Assembly (NCBI GenBank): GCA_024637035.1
Contig: JAGXFW010000021.1
Span: 1 to 58,068, forward strand
Reading direction: 5' to 3'
Origin: Actinomycetes bacterium
GTDB taxonomy: Bacteria > Actinomycetota > Thermoleophilia > RBG-16-64-13
DNA length: 58,068 nucleotides
Every line of letters begins with the position of its first letter. Within the stretch, counting starts at the first letter, position 1. The notes under the pieces are model-generated. The model saw nothing but the letters and a program-made list of their open reading frames with translations, did not search any database and was not told the origin of the DNA. A program made the position numbers and the translations under genes. Below, one piece after another: positions 48,536 through 58,068 of the stretch.

Positions 48536-49581
48536 CTCCGCCGCCTCCGGGCTTCGGAGGTGATCAGTTCGACGAGCCGAGGAGCGATGCGATGGAGGGG
48601 CAGCACCTCAGAAGCGACGCCCGCGTCGACGCAGGCCTTCGGCATGCCGTACACCACCGAGGTCTCTCTATCCTGCACTATGGTCGTGGCTTTCTTCTCG
48701 GTGAGCTTGGTCATGCCCTCGCGCCCGTCGGCGCCCATGCCGGTGAGCACCACCCCGATGCCCCGCGGCCCGAACACCTCGGCCAAGGAGGAGAGGGTCA
48801 CGTCGGCGGAAGGCTTGAAGCGGCCGTAGCCCTTCTCGTCGCTGAGTTCGATGGCCCGGCTTGAGCCGTTCTTCCCGAACCTCAGCTGGCTGCCCGGGGG
48901 AGCCAGATACGCGTGACCTGCACGGATCACCTGACCATCCACAGCCTCGACCACCTCGAGCTCCGACACACGGTCCAACCGTTGGGCCAACGATCGCGAG
49001 AATCCCACAGGTAGATGCTGCACGATGACGAAGGCGGCATCGAGACCTCCCGGCAACCCTGCCAGCAACACGTCGAGAGCCATGGGACCGCCCGTCGACG
49101 CCGCCACCGCGACCACGGGCATGAGCGGACGCGTCCCTGGCTGCGGCCTGCCGGGAGGAGCCTGATGCTGCGTCACCGGAGCGACCACCGCGGCCGCCGC
49201 TCTTACCTTGTCGCGCAGGTCTTCTCCCAGCTCGTCGATGTTCACCGAGATGGTGCCGGAGGGTTTGAGCACAAAGTCGATCGCGCCGAGTTCGAGGGCC
49301 TCGTAGGCCACGTGCGGGTCGGTGACCCCGCTCAGCATTATCACCTGCGGCCTCGGCCGGCCCTGAAGCTCCATCAAGACTTCGAGGCCGTTCATGCGCG
49401 GCATCTCGACGTCGAGGGTGATCACGTCCGGATCGAGAGCGGCGATCTTCTTGAGCGCGTCCTCGCCGTCTCGCGCGGTGTCGATCACGTCGATGTCGTC
49501 GGCCTTGGAGAGGACGTCGGAGATCAGAGTCCTCATGAGGGCCGAGTCATCGACGACGATGACTCGGGCCGCGCTAGCCAC
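48532..49581 (-). CDS. cheB: Protein-glutamate methylesterase CheB
   Basis: 349 residues. A receiver domain with phosphoacceptor D57 (TLDVEMPRMNG) is joined to the methylesterase domain with catalytic Ser in AASTGGP, His in IVQHLPVGFS, and Asp in TGMGADGREG. It removes methyl groups from receptors. GTG at 49581 is chosen because GGAG lies ten bases upstream, inside the cheY end; the two genes overlap by 8 nt. Confidence 0.95.
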   Translation of the reverse strand: MASAARVIVVDDSALMRTLISDVLSKADDIDVIDTARDGEDALKKIAALDPDVITLDVEMPRMNGLEVLMELQGRPRPQVIMLSGVTDPHVAYEALELGAIDFVLKPSGTISVNIDELGEDLRDKVRAAAAVVAPVTQHQAPPGRPQPGTRPLMPVVAVAASTGGPMALDVLLAGLPGGLDAAFVIVQHLPVGFSRSLAQRLDRVSELEVVEAVDGQVIRAGHAYLAPPGSQLRFGKNGSSRAIELSDEKGYGRFKPSADVTLSSLAEVFGPRGIGVVLTGMGADGREGMTKLTEKKATTIVQDRETSVVYGMPKACVDAGVASEVLPLHRIAPRLVELITSEARRRRR

Positions 49582-49933
49582 GGCTAACACGCTCCAGGGT
49601 GTCCAGCACCTTCTGTGGTTGGAAGGGCTTGACGATGAAATCCTTGGCGCCCAGCGAGAGGGATCGCTCGATGAACTCCTCTTGGCCGAGGGCACTCACC
49701 ATCACCACGTTGGCCTCAGGATCGAACTCCATGATCCTCGCGAGGGCCTCGATGCCGTCGGCGACAGGCATGGTGATGTCCATCGTCACCATCTCCGGCC
49801 GCACTTCCTGGTACACGCGGACTGCCGCCTCTCCGTCGGCGGCCTCCCCCACTATGGAGTAGCCATTCTTCTCCAAGATGTCTCGGAGCATCCTACGGAT
49901 GAAGCCGGAGTCGTCGACGATCAATACGTTCAT
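49574..49933 (-). CDS. cheY: Chemotaxis response regulator CheY
   Basis: 119 residues, a single receiver domain: D7-D8 acidic pair, phosphoacceptor D52 (VTMDITMPVADG), Ser84-type switch residue in MVSALGQ and the Lys of IVKPFQP. Phosphorylated by CheA. It overlaps cheW by 4 nt and cheB by 8 nt. Confidence 0.95.
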   Translation of the reverse strand: MNVLIVDDSGFIRRMLRDILEKNGYSIVGEAADGEAAVRVYQEVRPEMVTMDITMPVADGIEALARIMEFDPEANVVMVSALGQEEFIERSLSLGAKDFIVKPFQPQKVLDTLERVSRG

Positions 49934-50424
49934 CCGACAGGCACCTCCTTGAGCTCCCTCAAGCGCGCCAGCTGCTCTGGAGGCAGCAGCTCATGGGCGT
50001 GAACCAGTAGAAGCACATGATCATCTCGCTTCACGATCCCCCGGACGGCGGCCCTGATCTCGCCGTCGACGACGAGGTCCTCGGGGGCTTCCATGATGTC
50101 GTCGGATGCGATCTCTTCCACCGAATAGCAGGAATCCACCAGTGCAGCCATGTTCTCATCGGCAACGTCGAGCAGCAGGACGAACTCTTCGCGACCGTCT
50201 TGGGTGACGCTGCCGTCAGCATCGCCCAGACCGAAACGCCTACGCAAGTTGACCACAGCATGGATCTCGCCGCGAAGGTTGAAGATGCCCTCGATCGAGG
50301 CGGGAGCGCCGGGCATGTCCACGACCTCGGGTCGACGCAGGATGCTCCTCACGTCGGTGATGGGCAGGCCATACCGTCCCCTGCCCAGGCGGAACAGCAG
50401 ATACTTCTCAGATTCACCTGGCAT
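49930..50424 (-). CDS. cheW: Chemotaxis adaptor CheW
   Basis: 164 residues. A CheW fold with [20 protein letters not shown] at the start and the conserved [16 protein letters not shown] segment that contacts receptor and CheA. It couples the receptor at 50414 to CheA. It overlaps the receptor gene by 11 nt. Confidence 0.94.
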
Positions 50425-51781
50425 GGGTCTCCTCTAGCACAGCGGCTCGCCCATTGCCGTTCGCGGAGACAGTGAACCGCGCTACCAAGGCTTCCAGATG
50501 GCCGGCCATGTCGGCGAGCTCGTGGCTCGATGACGTGATCTCCTCCATGAACGCGGCTTGCTGCTCGGTTGCGGCGGCAGTCTCCTGCGCGCCCGCGGCG
50601 TTCTCTTCGACGACGGCGGCGATGTCGCTGGACGCCTTCTCCACACGCTCGACGGCGCTCAACTGAGCGGCGAGCACGTCGACGATCTCATCGTTCAGCC
50701 GAGCCGTCTCTTCTACTCCTCGGAACAGTCGCTGCAGTACCTGGCTCGTCTGCTCGACATCCGCGTGGCCCTCTTCGATCAGCATGCGCTCGCGCTGCAT
50801 GACACCCACGGCCACGTCGGTGCCTCCCCGCACTTCGGTGATCAGGGCGGCGATCTGTTCGGCGGCGGTGCTCGATTGCTCGGCCAGTTTGCGCACGTGG
50901 TCGGCCACGACCGCGAACCCACGCCCGGCTTCGCCGGCGCGACCCGCTTCGATGGCGGCATTCAACGAGAGAAGATGGGTCTGATCGGCAATATCGTTGA
51001 TCAGATCGTTGATGCGTTCGATCTCGCGAGATTGCTTGGCGAGCTGTTCGACCACCCGTACCGAGCTCTCGATGCCGTCCTGGAGACTGGTGATCTTCTT
51101 GATCAGCCGACCGGAGGCTTCGCCTCCATCCTTGGTGAACTGCTGGGCTTCGTGCGACGTGTCTGCCGCCGCCTTGGCTTGGCGCGAAGCTCCCTCCATG
51201 GCGCGCGTGATCTGGGAGACGGCCGTGGAGATCTCCTCGATCTTCCGCGCCTGAAGCTCCGCACCTTGGGCGATCTGTTGAACCGACGTAGACACCTCGA
51301 TCGTGGAGTTCGTGATGTCGTTCGCCGAATCGCTGAGTTGCTCGGCGGCGTTCGACACGCTCTTGGACGAGTCTTTCACACCTCCAACGATCCCCGAGAG
51401 GCTCTCGAGGAGGTAGTTGACCTGGCTGGCCAGAACGCCGATCTCGTCGGAGCGCTCGACCTCGCACCGGTGGCTGAGGTCGCCCTGCGCGCTCCGGCTG
51501 AGCGAACCACCGACCTCGCGAACCGGGCGCAGCACGTACCGATAGAAGCCGATGATCCAAAGCGGGCTACCGATAAGGAGGGTCGCCAGGGTCAGCTCCA
51601 AAGCCAACGGCAGGAGCAGGTCGAGAAAGCTCACGCCCGGCGCCAAGGATCCGCGAAGGTTCACGAAGTAGAAGAACGTGAGCGCCACGATCGTGGTGGG
51701 CCCGATGGTGATCAACGTGGCCATGTAGTACACGAATGCAAGGCTCCTGAAGAACCCGACTTCGTGGAACTCCCGTTTCAT
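50414..51781 (-). CDS. Methyl-accepting chemotaxis protein without a periplasmic sensor domain
   Basis: 455 residues. Two membrane helices (about 18-42 and 52-78) are separated by only about ten residues, so there is no extracytoplasmic ligand domain. A HAMP domain (about 80-135) and a signalling domain with the hairpin tip [20 protein letters not shown] follow, then [19 protein letters not shown]. It may sense membrane state, proton motive force or an internal partner, or depend on other receptors. It overlaps cheR by 4 nt. Confidence 0.93.
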
Positions 51782-52632
51782 GACGCCTCCTCAGGCATTC
51801 TCTTCCTGTACACACGCTCCGGCAGGCTCACATGGACGAACTGGTCGTAGAGTTCTGTCTTCAGCTTCTCGCTCTTGCCAAGTATCAGGTAACCACCCGG
51901 GTTGAGCGCCCCGGCCAGCTGCTTGAGCACCAAGATCTGCTGCTCCTGAGTGAAGTACATCAACACGTTGCGGCACAGGATCATGTCCATCATCCGCTGC
52001 CCAAGATGAGAGAACAGGTCGAGCTGCAGGAAGCGCACCATAGATCGGAGCTCTCTCGACATGCGTACACCATCGGGCTCGGGGCGCGTGAAGCGCGCAA
52101 GTTGCCCGCGCGACAACCCTGACATCTCACTCTCCGCATAGAGTCCCGCCTTGGCCTTTGCCAAGCAGTCGCGGTCGTAGTCGGTGGCCGTGATGCGTAC
52201 CGCCGAGGCGCTCCTTGGGTCGCTGCCGGCGAGCTCCGAGAAGAGCATGGCCAGACTGTATGGTTCTTGACCGGAGGAACATCCGGCGCTCCACAGGCGT
52301 ACGAACGACTGCCCCCGACGCTGCTTCCTTTCGAGAAGCTGCGGACCGATCTCCCGGCGCAAGAACTCCCACATGCCACGGTCGCGGAAGAACTCCGTGA
52401 CGTTCACCGTGAGCGCAGCGATCAGTCTGGTCCACTCGCCCTCTGTGCTGTCGAGGATCCGGATGTATGACCCCAAGTCGCTCGCGCCGCTCGCCCGAAG
52501 TCGGGATGTCACTCGCCGGCGGAAGTACGATTGCCTGAACTGACCGCAATCGAAATCGCGCTCGCGTTCTATCTTCTGCGCAAGAGCACCGAGTTCCTTG
52601 TCGGAAAGTATGAAAGAAGACTCCACCAACAT
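51778..52632 (-). CDS. cheR: Chemotaxis methyltransferase CheR
   Basis: 284 residues. The N-terminal helical domain ([18 protein letters not shown]) and the SAM-binding domain with [18 protein letters not shown], then [10 protein letters not shown], identify CheR. It methylates receptor glutamates. It is the first gene of the nine-gene operon. The interval 52633-52856 upstream shows no convincing promoter, although TTGAAT occurs near 52675; a weak GC-rich stem lies after the DUF4388 stop. Confidence 0.95.
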
Positions 52633-52856
52633 CGACCGCCACCTTCGAGTCCATACTGTTCGCCGTCCCGTGTCCTATTCAAGCACTGAGGTCAGGCTCC
52701 TTGGAGCGCTGCCCCACGCATCTTAGATTCGACAGTTCGCCGCCTGGGCTTTAGGAATCGGCCACACCGGGGCCCGACTACTGCCGCTTGCCGTGCCGCC
52801 ACGACGCCACCCACCTTCGGCGGTGGCCCCAGTGGCACCACGAGCACCGTCGCTTT

Positions 52857-53417
52857 CTAGCTCCGGCGAGAGGCGGCATCGACCCGGGCGCCCGCGACGG
52901 GGTCGAACGTACGATCCTGACGGATCTCGTCGGCGATGCGGAACGCTTCGAGAAGGGCGAACTGGAAGTTGATGAAGGCTCGGAACTTGGTCGGATGGAT
53001 CACATCCAACCGCGCAAAACTGAAGTACGGCGAGGGTAACTCGAGCGACAGACAGATCGTTTCGATGATCTGATCGAACACGCAATCCTCGAGGTCCTTC
53101 TGCTGCACCATCTTCTGGTGCACGAGGATACGCCCGATCGGGAGGTGCTTGCCGCGCGACTCGGCGAGTTGCTGAAGCTCGAGGGCTCGGTCGAGCTGGC
53201 GTGCCGTCACCCGCCCTTTGTTCAACAGCTTCACGCCGAGCGGCTCCTGCTCCGGAGCCGATGCCGACACCATGTAGCCTCGGTCGAGATAGATGGTGAA
53301 CGTCAAGCCGAGCTCGTATACACGGAACGCCCCCGTCAACGACGCGTTGCAGAGCAACTGGATCGTGTTGAGCAGCCCGAATGGCTTGAGCTCCCCCTGG
53401 ATGATCACCCTGGACAT
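52857..53417 (-). CDS. DUF4388 (PATAN-like) protein
   Basis: 186 residues. The N-terminal 100 residues match DUF4388: GELKPFGLLNTIQLLCNASL, then TGAFRVYE, with IYLDRGYMVSASA. Such domains occur in signalling proteins of gliding, pilus and chemotaxis systems and in response regulators. The C-terminal half is helical and contains a second DUF4388-associated segment (LVHQKMVQQKDLEDCVFDQI). Its ATG overlaps the stop of the haem cyclase gene by one base, so they work together; its exact role is unknown. Confidence 0.8.
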   Translation of the reverse strand: MSRVIIQGELKPFGLLNTIQLLCNASLTGAFRVYELGLTFTIYLDRGYMVSASAPEQEPLGVKLLNKGRVTARQLDRALELQQLAESRGKHLPIGRILVHQKMVQQKDLEDCVFDQIIETICLSLELPSPYFSFARLDVIHPTKFRAFINFQFALLEAFRIADEIRQDRTFDPVAGARVDAASRRS

Positions 53418-55240
53418 CAGGTTCCGTCTGCCGGGCCGCCCGGGCCTCCCGCCACCGTACCCGCGCCGGTCTCGTCGGCCGACACGGTCCTGTTCCGTCC
53501 GCGCGCCTTCGCCAGATACATGGCTCGGTCAGCCGCTTCGACGAGTTCCTCGGCAGAGCCGCCATGTTCGGGTCGTGTGGACACGCCTAGAGAGATGGTA
53601 AGACGGCCCCCAGGCTGTCCCTCACCTTCGAAGAAGGGCTCCTTCTGCACGACCTCCCGGAGTCTGTCGGCGAACGCCACGGCCTCGCGATGCGTGGTAT
53701 GCGGCAGTATCGCCGCGAACTCTTCGCCGCCGTAGCGAGCCACGAAGTCCGTGCCGCGCGCGTGCTCGCGCAGTATCTCACCAAGCCGTCGCAAGACCTG
53801 ATCGCCTCCCCGGTGACCGACACGATCATTGTACTTCTTGAAGTAGTCCACATCGAGCAGCACGAGGCTCAGAGACAAACCGTACCGTGCCGCGCGCACC
53901 ACCTCGCTGCCAAGGGCTTCATAGAAATGGCGGTGGTCGAACAGTCCGGTCAGACCGTCGGTGATGGCCATCTCGCGCGCCAACTCGTGCAGTCGCGTGT
54001 GGGCCACGGCGCGCGCTCCCTGCACCGCCAAGAACTCCAACGCCCTGCGGTCGGGTTGGGTCAGTTCCACATGTCCTTCTGCCACGAGCATGAGGTGACC
54101 CACCAACTCTCCTTCGGAGGCCATCGACAAGAGGATTGCGGTCTCGTACCGCTCGGGAAGACCGACCGCTTCAAGACCCACGTCGGCCGACCGGTACAAC
54201 ACTCTTGCCGCACCCACACCGGTCATCAGACTGGAGACCTGGCGCAGAGCCGACTCGACATCACTCGGTCTTGAGTCCGCCCCGTCCTCAGATGAGGCGT
54301 CCCCACCGCGCGGGAGCGAGGCGGGGTCCACCGCGAACGAAGTGCCGTCGTCGAGGACAACGGCTCCGGCCACGAACTTCCCGACCCCGATCGCCTCACC
54401 GATCATCACGTGCATGATGCTGTCGATGTCGAGCGCCGAACTCAGCGCCTCGGCAACCCGGTGCATCGAAGTCTCCAGGCGATCCTTGACCTCCTCGAGA
54501 TCGCCGATGCGGCCGGTCAATTCCGAGGTCATGGCATTGAAGCTGATGGCCAAGTCGCCGATCTCGTCTTCCTGCGGGAAGTCGACACGCTGAGTAAGGT
54601 CTCCTTGGGCGATCTGTCGCGCGCGCCTCGCGAAGATCTTGAGGGGCCGCACCACGGTGCGCGAGAGCATCACCCACAGCGCCACGACGAGTGCGGCGGT
54701 CAGTACCACCGTCTGTAACACGAACCTGTCCCGGTGACCGCGAAGGACATCGTAGTCGTCACGCAAGGAGACGCTCACGCGGATGACCCCCGCGATGGGG
54801 TCCGATTGTTCGTGGCACGCGAAGCAGGCGGGGCTGATCTCGATGGGTGTGAACGCGATGTAGGCCGGGTCGTCCGCGTCGGTGGTCACCATGCCCCTTG
54901 GCCGTCTATCGCCGAGCGTCTCGGCCCCCAGTTCGCCTATTGGCAGAAGACCCGTGGTGAAGGCCGGCTTGCCCACGGCGTCGAAGATAGTCACTTCGAG
55001 CACCTTGCTTGACTTTTCGACGCCCTCGACAACCTGCCCTACCAGGTCGGGGGAGCGCGACCTCATCGCAGCCGTAAGCGCTCCTTCGGTGGTCCGCCCG
55101 ACGTCGCGGGCGTTCTCGTAGGCAGTAGCTAGCACTTCCGAGCGCTCCGCCCGGTAGAAGAGTGTGCTGAGACCTGCCGTGATGAGCACCACGACGATCA
55201 AGACGACCATGAGGATCTTGGAGTTCAGAGAAGCCCGCAT
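53417..55240 (-). CDS. Transmembrane diguanylate cyclase with periplasmic c-type haem motif
   Basis: 607 residues. TM1 (7-29), an extracytoplasmic domain (30-172), TM2 (173-194), HAMP (195-250), a GAF-like region (260-420) and a GGDEF domain (425-600) with active site RYGGEEF (504-508) and inhibition site RGTD (495-498). The extracytoplasmic part contains CFACH at 139-143, a complete c-type haem attachment motif. So haem redox or gas binding outside the cell may set c-di-GMP inside. Haem c sensor domains of this general kind are known in receptors of metal-reducing bacteria. The ATG at 55240 directly precedes TM1. Confidence 0.88.
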   Translation of the reverse strand: MRASLNSKILMVVLIVVVLITAGLSTLFYRAERSEVLATAYENARDVGRTTEGALTAAMRSRSPDLVGQVVEGVEKSSKVLEVTIFDAVGKPAFTTGLLPIGELGAETLGDRRPRGMVTTDADDPAYIAFTPIEISPACFACHEQSDPIAGVIRVSVSLRDDYDVLRGHRDRFVLQTVVLTAALVVALWVMLSRTVVRPLKIFARRARQIAQGDLTQRVDFPQEDEIGDLAISFNAMTSELTGRIGDLEEVKDRLETSMHRVAEALSSALDIDSIMHVMIGEAIGVGKFVAGAVVLDDGTSFAVDPASLPRGGDASSEDGADSRPSDVESALRQVSSLMTGVGAARVLYRSADVGLEAVGLPERYETAILLSMASEGELVGHLMLVAEGHVELTQPDRRALEFLAVQGARAVAHTRLHELAREMAITDGLTGLFDHRHFYEALGSEVVRAARYGLSLSLVLLDVDYFKKYNDRVGHRGGDQVLRRLGEILREHARGTDFVARYGGEEFAAILPHTTHREAVAFADRLREVVQKEPFFEGEGQPGGRLTISLGVSTRPEHGGSAEELVEAADRAMYLAKARGRNRTVSADETGAGTVAGGPGGPADGT

Positions 55241-55350: not shown

Positions 55351-56409
55351 CTAGCCGCGGCCCGCGGTGCACACCGCCGGGTCGGCCTCGGCGGGTACGC
55401 TCTCGGCCTCCGGGCGTGCAGTCTCGGCCTCAGCAGGTGCTGTCCTGGCTTCGGTGGGCATCGATCGAGCGAGCTCTGCCATGCGCTGCTCGGCGAGCGG
55501 GTTTGGCACGCTCGACTGCTCGCCGAACTCGGCAATACGTCGCATGAGCACGTACTGCTCCGGGTCTTCGCCTCGGGCGACCGCCTCCGCCTTGAGTGCG
55601 GCCTCTTCCTTGATCGCGTCGTCCACCGCTTGATAGTGCAGCCATCCACCCTTATGCAGGATGCTGTCACCGAGCTCTGGGTCGGTCTGCATCGAGCCTA
55701 CACAGGGAAAGCTGTGCCAGTACTTGGATACGACTCTCTCGTTGAGATCGGAGTCTATCTGCTGTCCCGCCAGATTGTAGGCGACGTAGTAGGTGTTCCC
55801 GCACGGGGCGCTCTGCACGACGCGTGCCTCACGGATCACGCCATCACGGCTCTGGATCACGATCTTTGGCTTTCCGATCCGGTACCTCTCCTGGAACTCC
55901 CTGATGACCGCTTGGTCAGCCCGGGCGTCCAGAGCACATGCCGGCTTCGGAAACGCGCACTCGAGTCCGAGTTCGTCGCAGATGCGCTGGGTCTGACGCC
56001 GGACTCCAGCACTCAGCCAGCCGGTGTCGTCTTGCGGCACGATGAGCGCCCGGCTCCCCGAGGCGACCGCCAGGGCGGGCAGGCTCAAAAGAAGGTCTTC
56101 GTGGACGTTGATGGCGAGGGTCACATCGTGGGGTTCGAGCTCGTCCGGGAAGTAGTCAGCCGGATCGTCCACATACACCGGGATGCGGGCGGGCAGCTGA
56201 AGGAGACCGACCACATCCTCAGCGAATTGGATCGGATATTGATCGCGACAGTGTTCGCAGAAGCTGGCGCAACCGGTGCACAGTTCGGCGTCGTTGGTGA
56301 GGTGCATGATCACGCGTTGGGCGAAGGCGTCGTCGAAGGATTTCAGGAACGACGACGGCAGGTCGCACTCCTGGGAATCGTCGCCCGAGAATACGAAAAA
56401 CAGCCTCAC
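55351..56409 (-). CDS. DUF166 family protein
   Basis: 352 residues. VRLFFVFSGDD at the start, the cysteine cluster CTGCASFCEHC (C-x2-C-x3-C-x2-C), and the later SAPCGNTYYVAYNLAGQQID match DUF166, a family best known from methanogens and without a proven function. Fe-S binding is likely from the cysteines. The last 70 residues are an Ala/Glu/Pro-rich tail absent from the archaeal proteins I recall. GTG at 56409 has GGGAGGGG upstream; the upstream frame to 56475 runs into the promoter. It is divergent from an HTH regulator and has a near-consensus promoter covered by palindromes. Confidence 0.82.
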   Translation of the reverse strand: MRLFFVFSGDDSQECDLPSSFLKSFDDAFAQRVIMHLTNDAELCTGCASFCEHCRDQYPIQFAEDVVGLLQLPARIPVYVDDPADYFPDELEPHDVTLAINVHEDLLLSLPALAVASGSRALIVPQDDTGWLSAGVRRQTQRICDELGLECAFPKPACALDARADQAVIREFQERYRIGKPKIVIQSRDGVIREARVVQSAPCGNTYYVAYNLAGQQIDSDLNERVVSKYWHSFPCVGSMQTDPELGDSILHKGGWLHYQAVDDAIKEEAALKAEAVARGEDPEQYVLMRRIAEFGEQSSVPNPLAEQRMAELARSMPTEARTAPAEAETARPEAESVPAEADPAVCTAGRG

Positions 56410-56439
56410 TAACCCCTCCCCGTCCCACTGACCCCGCAG

Positions 56440-56465
56440 GTTTACACTGCCCAAACAGTATAAAC
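56440..56465. promoter_or_regulatory. Palindrome over the DUF166 -10 region
   Basis: GTTTACACTG-cccaaa-CAGTATAAAC, nine of ten positions symmetric. It covers the -10 box and start region of the DUF166 promoter. It is a likely operator, probably for the adjacent regulator. Confidence 0.6.
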
Positions 56466-56485
56466 CACGGTACACACTGTGTCAA
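56457..56485 (-). promoter_or_regulatory. Promoter of the DUF166 gene
   Basis: TTGACA (56480-56485), 17 bases, TATACT (56457-56462): the best match to a housekeeping promoter in the window. The leader is about 40 bases. Confidence 0.8.
56472..56482. promoter_or_regulatory. Second palindrome in the DUF166/regulator interval
   Basis: ACACA-C-TGTGT, perfect, lying over the spacer and -35 box of the DUF166 promoter. It shares the ACACTG core with the first palindrome; a further GTGTTTA half-site follows at about 56488. Confidence 0.55.
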
Positions 56486-56513
56486 CGGTGTTTAGTTTCC
56501 CCGAACTTTCCGC

Positions 56514-56519
56514 TACTAT
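56514..56519 (+). promoter_or_regulatory. -10 box placed for a leaderless regulator mRNA
   Basis: TACTAT is seven bases before the ATG at 56527 and there is no ribosome site, so the message is probably leaderless. The -35 region (TTTAGT) is poor. Confidence 0.45.
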
Positions 56520-56526
56520 AGTTCTA

Positions 56527-57339
56527 ATGGATACACGAACCGAAATGTCCCACTCGAACATCCTCTCCCCAGAAGAGACACTCGACATAACAGGCGCCCT
56601 CGGGGATCCTACCCGCTATTCCATCTATAGGTTCATTGTGGAAGCGGCCGGAGAGCCGGTCACGGTGGCCGAGGTGGCCTCTCAGTTCTCTCTGCATCCG
56701 AACGTGGCCCGCATGCACCTTCAGAAGTTGGTCGAGGCACGGCTGCTGCTGGCCGACACGCGGCGCTCGAAGGCCGGTGGGCGACCGGCTCGCATCTACA
56801 AAGTCAGCCCCCAGGTGGCCAACCTGCAGTTCCCCCCGCGCGACTACCAGATGCTCGCGGAGATCGCGCTGAGAGTGGTCGAGGAGTTCGCCGGCGATGA
56901 CCCCGAAGCGCTCGACCGTGTGGGAACTGAACTTGGGCGAGAAGAGGCTCGGCGCGCGCTGAAGCGCGACGGTCTGGACCCGCGGCACCACGATCTGGAC
57001 GTCCTCCTCGAGAGCCTATCGGCCACCGCGGCGGGTCTCGGTCTTCACCCGCGGGTCGAGCGGAACGACGACGGCACCGTTGATTTCGAGATCCGCAATT
57101 GTATCTTCCGCGAGCTCTCCACTCAGCACCCGGAACTGGTCTGCAGTCTTCACACCGCGATGCTGACGGGATTCGTGCAGGAGTACGTCTCGGCCTCCGG
57201 GCTTGAGGGCACTCCGGCAATCTCGTCCGGGGAAGCGGTGTGCCTCTTCAAGGTGCGCCTGCAGCCCCAGACTTCCGCCGACGACGTGGAGACTTCGGCC
57301 GACGCGGCCGTAGGACCCCCGCCAACGCGGGCAGACTGA
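56527..57339 (+). CDS. ArsR/SufR-like HTH regulator with a C-terminal Cys/His cluster
   Basis: 270 residues. A winged-helix domain (about 18-95) has the ArsR/DeoR-like ALGDPTRYSIYRFIVEA and a recognition helix near HPNVARMHLQKLVEA. The C-terminal domain contains NCIFRELSTQHPELVCSLHT: C192, H201, C206, H209, with C238 later. This spacing resembles Fe-S-binding regulators of the SufR type. Binding of an Fe-S cluster or metal is inferred. It probably represses the divergent DUF166 promoter, whose elements are covered by two palindromes. ATG at 56527 fits a leaderless start; an ATG at 56545 is the alternative. Confidence 0.82.
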   Translation: MDTRTEMSHSNILSPEETLDITGALGDPTRYSIYRFIVEAAGEPVTVAEVASQFSLHPNVARMHLQKLVEARLLLADTRRSKAGGRPARIYKVSPQVANLQFPPRDYQMLAEIALRVVEEFAGDDPEALDRVGTELGREEARRALKRDGLDPRHHDLDVLLESLSATAAGLGLHPRVERNDDGTVDFEIRNCIFRELSTQHPELVCSLHTAMLTGFVQEYVSASGLEGTPAISSGEAVCLFKVRLQPQTSADDVETSADAAVGPPPTRAD

Positions 57340-57374: not shown

Positions 57375-57935
57375 CTACAGGTTCCGGGCGAACCGGTCGA
57401 TCAGGAACCCTCCCACCAAGCCGACCAAGATCGTGACTGCGGCCACCACCACTCCGACCGTCCGGCCGGTGCTTGCAGCCACGTCCACACCTTCGCGGGG
57501 TTCGCCGCCGCCCTCCAGCTTCTCCGGGGAAAGCCCCCCGTAGAACCACGAGGACACACCGGCCCGCAGGTGTACGTTCGAGGTGTGGCAGTCCATACAG
57601 CGGCCGGCGCTGGTCTCAGCTGTGAAGTCGGGATGGATCGAGTCCACATCGTGGCATCCCATGCAGATGCCCACGTTGGGAGACGGCGTGAAATCGCCCC
57701 CGTCGTGCGTCGAGTGGCACACCTCGCACGTCACCCCGTTGCGGCCGTGGTTCTGCGTGCGCCACGTGTCGACGATCTCCTTGCTCACCCCGCTGTGGCA
57801 GGTCACGCAGATCGGATCTCCCGGCAACGTCGTGGGAGGGGTGGCTGACGTTACGGCCGCAGCCGACCCCGCGGTGCCCATCAGCAGGAGGGCCGCAGCG
57901 CACAGCACCAGGGCAACGAGTTTGAGACGCCCCAT
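57375..57935 (-). CDS. Membrane-anchored tetrahaem cytochrome c
   Basis: 186 residues. A signal peptide (MGRLKLVALVLCAAALLLMG) is followed by four CxxCH motifs: CVTCH, CEVCH, CMGCH and CMDCH, with extra His that can act as second ligands (HGRNG, HPDFT, HLRAG). A C-terminal membrane helix (VGVVVAAVTILVGLVGGFLI) anchors it. The haem spacing is of the NapC/NrfH or cytochrome c3 type. It would carry electrons on the outer face of the membrane. Its ATG overlaps the stop of the gene before it by one base; a GTG three bases earlier is possible. Confidence 0.88.
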   Translation of the reverse strand: MGRLKLVALVLCAAALLLMGTAGSAAAVTSATPPTTLPGDPICVTCHSGVSKEIVDTWRTQNHGRNGVTCEVCHSTHDGGDFTPSPNVGICMGCHDVDSIHPDFTAETSAGRCMDCHTSNVHLRAGVSSWFYGGLSPEKLEGGGEPREGVDVAASTGRTVGVVVAAVTILVGLVGGFLIDRFARNL

Positions 57936-58068
57936 CACTCGAACCCCAAGAACCCAAGAAGGGTGAGGGTGAGGGCGGCGATTGCTCCAAGACCCACGAC
58001 GGTGTTCAGGATGGCGCGACCCCAGCGGTAGCGGGTGATGCGACCCCAGAAGAAGGGCACGGTGATCA
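57935..58068 (-). CDS. C-terminal end of a membrane protein (partial, runs off the window)
   Basis: The last 43 codons read ITVPFFWGRITRYRWGRAIL, then a final membrane helix (NTVVGLGAIAALTLTLLGFL) and GFE-stop. The 5' part lies beyond base 58068. Coupling to the tetrahaem cytochrome suggests a membrane redox partner such as a cytochrome b-type or quinol-oxidising subunit, but no diagnostic residue is visible. Confidence 0.65.
   Translation of the reverse strand, partial: ITVPFFWGRITRYRWGRAILNTVVGLGAIAALTLTLLGFLGFE

Follow-up and report, generated by a model that had tools for sequence, protein, structure and literature searches.

A conserved promoter region with a predicted operator between divergent genes for DUF166 and a putative Fe-S-type winged-helix regulator in Actinomycetota

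DUF166 (PF02593) is an orphan family: the parts of the literature covered by our search report no function for it and name it only as a selenoprotein family. In a stretch of 58,068 nucleotides from an Actinomycetes bacterium (contig JAGXFW010000021.1, the window hereafter), a DUF166 gene and a gene for a winged-helix regulator form a divergent pair around one strong promoter (Table 1). This arrangement raises the questions of whether the regulator controls DUF166, what signal it may respond to, and what DUF166 does. An earlier note on this DNA had suggested an Fe-S or metal-responsive switch acting on DUF166, and we analyzed this possibility by comparing the locus with those of related genomes and with known regulators.

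The divergent gene pair and its promoter region

The DUF166 promoter, TTGACA-N17-TATACT on the minus strand, matches 11 of the 12 consensus positions and tops a consensus scan of the whole window, in which the next-best promoter matches 10 of 12; its description in the earlier note as the best of the window was thus borne out. The leaderless start proposed for the regulator also agrees with the sequence, because no Shine-Dalgarno sequence is seen before its ATG and a TACTAT hexamer lies 7 nt upstream of it, a distance that is also found in genomes G006 and G009. The palindrome reported over the DUF166 -10 region is present as a dyad with 11-nt arms (56439-56449 and 56456-56466) that are 91% complementary and separated by a 6-nt loop. 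A dyad of this quality is not by itself exceptional in the window, where five dyads with 10-nt arms, a 6-nt spacer and at least 9 matches were counted. The 11-bp palindrome reported over the spacer and -35 region (ACACACTGTGT, 56472-56482, read from the sequence) is there too, but makes more sense as a portion of a second operator copy. The predicted operator is a 24-bp element, TTTnCACT-N8-AGTATAAA, which occurs as O1 and again, in register, as O2: the CACT of the 2 copies is found at 56445 and 56475, exactly 30 bp apart, which corresponds to approximately three helical turns. The O2 copy fits CACT-N9-GTGTTTA.

Table 1. Features of the DUF166-regulator region (window coordinates) and the additional palindrome found in the same genome.
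Feature	Position	Strand	Basis or remark
DUF166 (PF02593), GTG start at 56409, 352 aa	55351..56409	-	Pfam, 159.7 bits (cut-off 24.4)
Shine-Dalgarno GGAGG of DUF166, 5 nt from start codon	56415..56419	-	read from sequence
Operator O1 (predicted), TTTACACT-GCCCAAAC-AGTATAAA, over DUF166 -10	56441..56464		cross-genome conservation
-10 hexamer TATACT of DUF166 promoter	56457..56462	-	consensus scan; kept in 6/6 genomes
Operator O2 (predicted), TACACACT-GTGTCAAC-GGTGTTTA, over DUF166 -35 and beside the regulator's -35 region	56471..56494		
-35 hexamer TTGACA of DUF166 promoter	56480..56485	-	consensus scan and conservation
Likely regulator -10, TACTAT, 7 nt before ATG (leaderless)	56514..56519	+	read from sequence
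Winged-helix regulator (HTH_20 and V4R/MetOD1-like domain), 270 aa	56527..57339	+	Pfam, alignment, Foldseek
Additional palindrome	G000 contig 32, 18171-18194 (L193, L194)		before the gene for a 2[4Fe-4S] ferredoxin-domain protein of ~275 aa

DUF166 is encoded in 6 of the 18 genomes of the order, and the same 6 are the only carriers among the 399 genomes of the class. An orthologue of the regulator (at least 54% identity) is present in exactly these 6 genomes of the order. When the pattern TTNACACT-N8-AGTATAAA was searched at 0-1 mismatch, it was found in all 6 genomes with the gene pair and was absent from the other 12, which show 2-mismatch matches at best. Each of the 6 genomes has a single match, located in every case between the regulator gene and the DUF166 operon. 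At the G+C of the window (0.66), approximately 0.01 matches of this quality are expected per genome, and a backward control pattern, searched with up to 2 mismatches allowed, gave 0-1 matches on each strand of a genome. In this check on relatives the palindrome is therefore kept where the gene pair is, and at the level of sequence its conservation, unlike the palindromes alone, exceeds chance.

The conservation is concentrated on the operator. Across the 6 genomes, 15 of the 16 columns of the O1 arms are identical and the TTGACA-N17/18-TATACT promoter is intact. When one genome per genus was compared (four genera), 15 of the 24 operator columns were identical, whereas identical columns were few in the flanks: 1 of 55 on the upstream side, and 2 of 31 and 1 of 40 on the downstream side. 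O2 is recognisable in the genome of the window (G000) and in G006 and G009, and is absent or degraded in G007, G016, and G017. Because the right arm of O1, AGTATAAA, contains the -10 hexamer, its conservation could reflect constraint on the promoter, and only the left arm TTTnCACT and O2 are independent of it. Altogether, comparison of these genomes, which are related and do not count as separate samples, shows that the gene pair, the promoter, and the predicted operator are co-conserved across genera and, within the order, exactly co-distributed.

The surroundings of the pair vary among the 6 genomes. A protein with NIR_SIR and ferredoxin domains is encoded between the regulator and DUF166 in G009 and G007. 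The nifS and nifU genes follow the regulator in G016 and G017 and are near it in G009, and are not adjacent to it in the stretches examined of G000, G006, and G007. In the window, a multihaem c-type cytochrome gene (57375-58068) is convergent with the regulator gene and the window stops at the contig end; in G009, cytochrome b-like and NapC-like genes come next and are followed by nifS/nifU. Beside DUF166, genes for a DUF4388 protein and a HAMP-GGDEF protein lie next to chemotaxis-like genes (49574-55240; CheW, MCP, and CheR, assigned by eye), and a similar order is found in G006 and G007.

The regulator and the proposed switch

The winged-helix assignment of the regulator in Table 1 comes from an ArsR-like HTH_20 domain (49.8 bits, cut-off 27). 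The second domain scored 20.8 bits with MetOD1, which is below the cut-off of 23.8, and 26.9 bits, above it, in the orthologue L007, whereas V4R scored 29.6 bits against a cut-off of 31 in the paralogue L028. An AlphaFold2 model of the regulator (mean pLDDT 77.6, pTM 0.52) was compared with known structures by Foldseek, which returned ArsR-type winged helices, including CzrA, SmtB, CadC, and ArsR, and TRAPP subunits at an E of about 2e-3; V4R and TRAPP subunits have a common fold. A sequence search of the PDB returned four sequences with E values of 0.04 to 0.8.

The candidate ligands, numbered from the ATG at 56527, are C192, C206, H209, and C239. The first three had been named in the earlier note, and the fourth, given there as C238, was off by one. 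All 18 regulator homologues compared have C192, C206, and C239, and H209 is kept in the six orthologues and replaced by Asp in metV-linked paralogues. The genome of the window encodes paralogues of the regulator on contig 7 (L027, 3094-3906) and contig 32 (L028, 7279-8058). One adjoins metV (tested with PF12225) with flavodiiron-like and rubrerythrin-like genes nearby, and the other adjoins the gene of a large NuoF-like oxidoreductase with an aldehyde:ferredoxin oxidoreductase-like gene nearby (by eye). No clear shared palindrome was seen by eye in six stretches upstream of paralogous regulators.

The available parts of PMC12343034 describe ArnR of Corynebacteria, a [4Fe-4S] repressor of narKGHJI and hmp that binds its cluster via Cys179, Cys193, and Cys223; a conserved His is found close to these. 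The regulator resembles ArnR in its MarR/ArsR-like winged helix, in three conserved C-terminal Cys, and in the C-x13-C spacing accompanied by a conserved His (here C192-x13-C206-x2-H209), a likeness drawn from the published residue positions. It differs in the distance to the third Cys, which lies 30 residues further on in ArnR and 33 in the regulator, and in its targets. From this resemblance we infer that the regulator probably carries a [4Fe-4S] cluster on C192, C206, and C239, and H209 is the likely fourth ligand; these residues could instead hold Zn, Ni, or nothing.

SufR, known from cyanobacteria, Mycobacterium, and Streptomyces, provides a second comparison. According to the parts available of PMC6034842, PMC11995493, PMC8593673, and PMC13421787, SufR also combines a winged helix with a C-terminal cluster site, binds an operator that overlaps the -10 and regulates its own gene, and a leaderless start has been reported for Rv1460. 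However, the SufR operator is CAAC-N6-GTTG (PMC8593673) and not CACT-N8-AGTG as here, and the Cys spacing of SufR, C-X12-C-X13-C-X14-C in these sources, is unlike that of the regulator. Together with a TIGR02702 score of 19.7 bits against a cut-off of 178.8, these differences rule out that the regulator is SufR; no suf genes were recognised in the DNA stretches examined around it. We found no description of the regulator or its operator in the literature searched, outside of which most subscription papers lie, and a term search of the available parts of PMC6344411 and PMC7325909 found neither DUF166 nor such a regulator.

We propose that the regulator would act as a dimer that combines a winged helix with a V4R-like sensor domain. 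When loaded with its ligand, it would bind the two operator copies (CACT-N8-rGTr half-sites) 30 bp apart and cover the -10 and -35 of DUF166, which would repress this gene, and its position on O2 beside its own -35 region could provide autoregulation. Loss or change of the cluster upon iron shortage or exposure to an oxidant or NO would derepress DUF166 and, in some relatives, also the sulfite-reductase-like Fe-S protein or nifSU. The simplest reading, drawn from the analogy with SufR and ArnR, is repression that ends when the cofactor is lost or altered; the sign of the regulation, the signal, the cluster, and the role of DUF166 are inferred. An autoregulated divergent Fe-S-type switch on DUF166, with DUF166 as an accessory of the Wood-Ljungdahl pathway, is as a whole the explanation that we consider reasonably probable. 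The proposal made in the earlier note is thus supported in part, by the co-conserved gene pair, promoter, and operator and by the three-Cys-plus-His signature, whereas the Fe-S sensing in it comes from analogy.

The same switch could respond to another signal if, instead of holding a [4Fe-4S] cluster, the three Cys and one His bound Zn or Ni or acted as a thiol or CO sensor. We consider this unlikely, although several observations fit it: metal sensing is common among ArsR-type winged helices, and CzrA, SmtB, CadC, and ArsR are among the Foldseek matches, the regulator subfamily of family f6 adjoins cooS, the gene of a Ni enzyme, and the position of H209 is taken by Asp in the metV-linked paralogues. 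The C-x13-C plus His arrangement nevertheless resembles that of ArnR, in which three Cys hold a [4Fe-4S] cluster (PMC12343034, in its available parts), and the genes beside the sites include nifSU, NIR_SIR-like, ferredoxin, and cooS genes, all of them for Fe-S proteins or their assembly. If the Fe-S switch is correct, the few known ArsR-like Fe-S regulators are joined by one with a distinct operator, and with a link to the anaerobic metabolism of CO and C1 compounds in Actinomycetota that are rarely grown in culture.

The DUF166 protein and acetyl-CoA synthase

DUF166 contains the C-x2-C-x3-C-x2-C cluster that had been noticed before (C44, C47, C51, and C54) and also C144, C158, C203, and C236. 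All eight Cys are invariant in 23 aligned sequences, which suggests that DUF166 is an Fe-S protein; the first four are lost in the homologue of Thermosediminibacter. DfsP (NF041372, DUF166 family (seleno)protein) belongs to the same Pfam family, PF02593, and DUF166 scored 49.8 bits with NF041372 against a cut-off of 200 and is thus not identified as DfsP. None of six DUF166 family members has a stop codon inside the frame, so these proteins show no sign of selenocysteine. The PDB gave no match for DUF166 in a sequence search at E up to 1 and none under E 0.001 with Foldseek, and the best fold match (VIA Z 7.9) is generic Rossmann-like and therefore uninformative. The C-terminal tail of the protein (55351-55500) is acidic and repetitive, rich in EA/PA and ending in VCTAGRG; it is long in the genus of the window and short or absent in most aligned homologues. 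Designation of the family as archaeal-type in the earlier note understates its spread, because PF02593-type loci come from contigs whose titles name Actinomycetota, Nitrospirae, Spirochaetes, Fibrobacteria, and others.

We analyzed the co-occurrence of DUF166 with the acetyl-CoA synthase beta subunit (PF03598) in a sample of 396 genomes of the phylum, 40 of which encode DUF166 and 92 the synthase. The synthase is present in 38 of the 40 DUF166 genomes and in 54 of the 356 others (Fisher p = 4e-25), and in 36 of 40 and 50 of 356 (p = 6e-23) when six weak PF03598 matches were dropped. Counted by genus, the co-occurrence is 24 of 26 (p = 1e-14), and by family 12 of 14 (p = 5e-6, assuming some 80 families); because the genomes, genera, and families are related, all these p values overstate the case. 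Within the order of the window, the synthase is found in all 6 DUF166 genomes and in 6 of the 12 others. Among 14 control genomes, PF03598 scored above the cut-off in M. jannaschii and M. acetivorans, and PF02593 matched M. jannaschii, M. acetivorans, and B. subtilis, above the cut-off in two of these three. This comparison shows that DUF166 and acetyl-CoA synthase are linked and, judged by gene content, that the DUF166 family tracks with an ancient carbon-fixing pathway.

DUF166 neighbourhoods were inspected in 51 loci, with genes counted from protein clusters of which one representative each was checked with Pfam (a MetE-like cluster had no Pfam match). Ribonucleotide reductase was found in 15 loci, Wood-Ljungdahl genes (cooC-like and cdhD-like) in 8, osmC in 7, nifS in 5, and nifU in 4. 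The ribonucleotide reductase has an ATP cone and is encoded directly upstream of DUF166 (L097, L100-L104, L106, L108, L110, L112, L113, L115, L121, L122, and L129). In L135 and L132 the gene order is acsB, acsC, activator, cooC, acsD, acsE, and DUF166, and in Thermosediminibacter DUF166 is located between the formate-tetrahydrofolate ligase and the fchA/folD genes (acs and folate names were given by eye, and cdhD, pterin-binding, and CbiA domains were tested on representatives).

The reductase genes directly upstream in 15 of 51 loci are the main competing hint, namely that DUF166 serves ribonucleotide reduction or another radical or corrinoid enzyme and that its link with acetyl-CoA synthase reflects shared anaerobic ancestry. 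The pathway does not need DUF166, since a strong synthase match was obtained in 50 of the 356 genomes without it. However, the synthase is present in 36-38 of the 40 DUF166 genomes, runs of acs/folate genes in distant phyla include DUF166, and both families are above the cut-off in two of the 14 control genomes, which together make this alternative rather improbable. DUF166 probably assists the Wood-Ljungdahl pathway of acetyl-CoA synthase/CO dehydrogenase as an Fe-S accessory protein, and having both a defined operator and a named pathway partner makes it a testable gene.

The operator and the regulator beyond the order

The 51 DUF166 loci were obtained by scanning GTDB 220 with the alignment of 23 DUF166 sequences. 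A regulator profile matched 5 of them, all from the family of the window, and these 5 all carry the operator. In the 46 loci without a regulator match, some of which are short so that a distant regulator could be missed, the operator was not found at up to 2 mismatches. The ACACTG-type palindrome expected before DUF166 genes is thus there when the regulator is present and not in the other 46 loci, and a general DUF166 operator is ruled out.

Regulator homologues with 39-48% identity are also encoded in other families of the class. In family f6 the homologue is divergent from the CO dehydrogenase gene cooS in the 6 loci examined, including L169 (two loci assigned with TIGR01702 at 735.6 and 721.2 bits, cut-off 478; the others by eye). 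In family f3 the homologues are near osmC, uppP (by eye), and tldD/pmbA genes. The stretches upstream of these homologues carry the same element as the window, an example being the perfect ATAAACACT-GTGTCAAT-AGTGTTTAT in L147. The CACT-N9-GTGTTTA motif was searched in 43 genomes, 14 picked as lacking a regulator homologue and 29 representing the strongest regulator matches among the 64 of 399 genomes that match at E 1e-20. In 21 of the 29 genomes, distributed over three families (2 of 6 in f1, 12 of 15 in f3, and 7 of 8 in f6), the exact motif precedes the regulator homologue by 33-106 bp, and it occurs in 1 of the 14 genomes picked as lacking a homologue. It is missing at the regulator in G006 (one mismatch at O2), G007, G016, G017, G049, G044, G103, and G064. 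The conserved form of the operator is CACT-N8-AGTG/AGTA; the consensus from an alignment of 31 sites, which had been selected with the motif or taken from the six DUF166 regions, is no independent test. Because DUF166 loci without the regulator lack the operator and regulators beside cooS or osmC/tldD have it, comparison across these loci shows that the palindrome belongs to the regulator.

It is very improbable that the conserved block is merely a strong promoter with an incidental dyad and a regulator acting elsewhere. In favour of this reading, TATACT and TTGACA are among the conserved columns, and the window contains five dyads of this strength. Against it, 6 of 6 genomes keep the left arm TTTnCACT, which overlaps no sigma-70 element, and in f3 and f6 the half-site motif accompanies regulator genes that have other partners. 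Extending the operator-based switch to the class, we tentatively suggest, as a possibility that may or may not hold, that a subfamily of V4R-type repressors found across the class, sensing Fe-S (or CO/Ni) and having TnnnCACT-N8-nGTGTTTA as its own operator, could govern CO dehydrogenase-linked genes, namely cooS in one family and DUF166 in another, and that DUF166, an orphan shared with methanogens, would be an accessory Fe-S protein of CO dehydrogenase/acetyl-CoA synthase.

A regulon spread over the genome of the window was ruled out: the O1 pattern has no second match there with fewer than 2 mismatches, and a broader motif adds one exact site. No operator was found in front of the acetyl-CoA synthase cluster of this genome. 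The additional site is a perfect palindrome, TAAACACT-N8-AGTGTTTA (AAACACT-N8-AGTGTTT), and its placement is identical in the sister species G006 (contig 12; L189, L195), which makes the ferredoxin-domain gene behind it a second likely target of the regulator. A related site is found in G087 before a ferredoxin gene, behind which lies a CO dehydrogenase gene.
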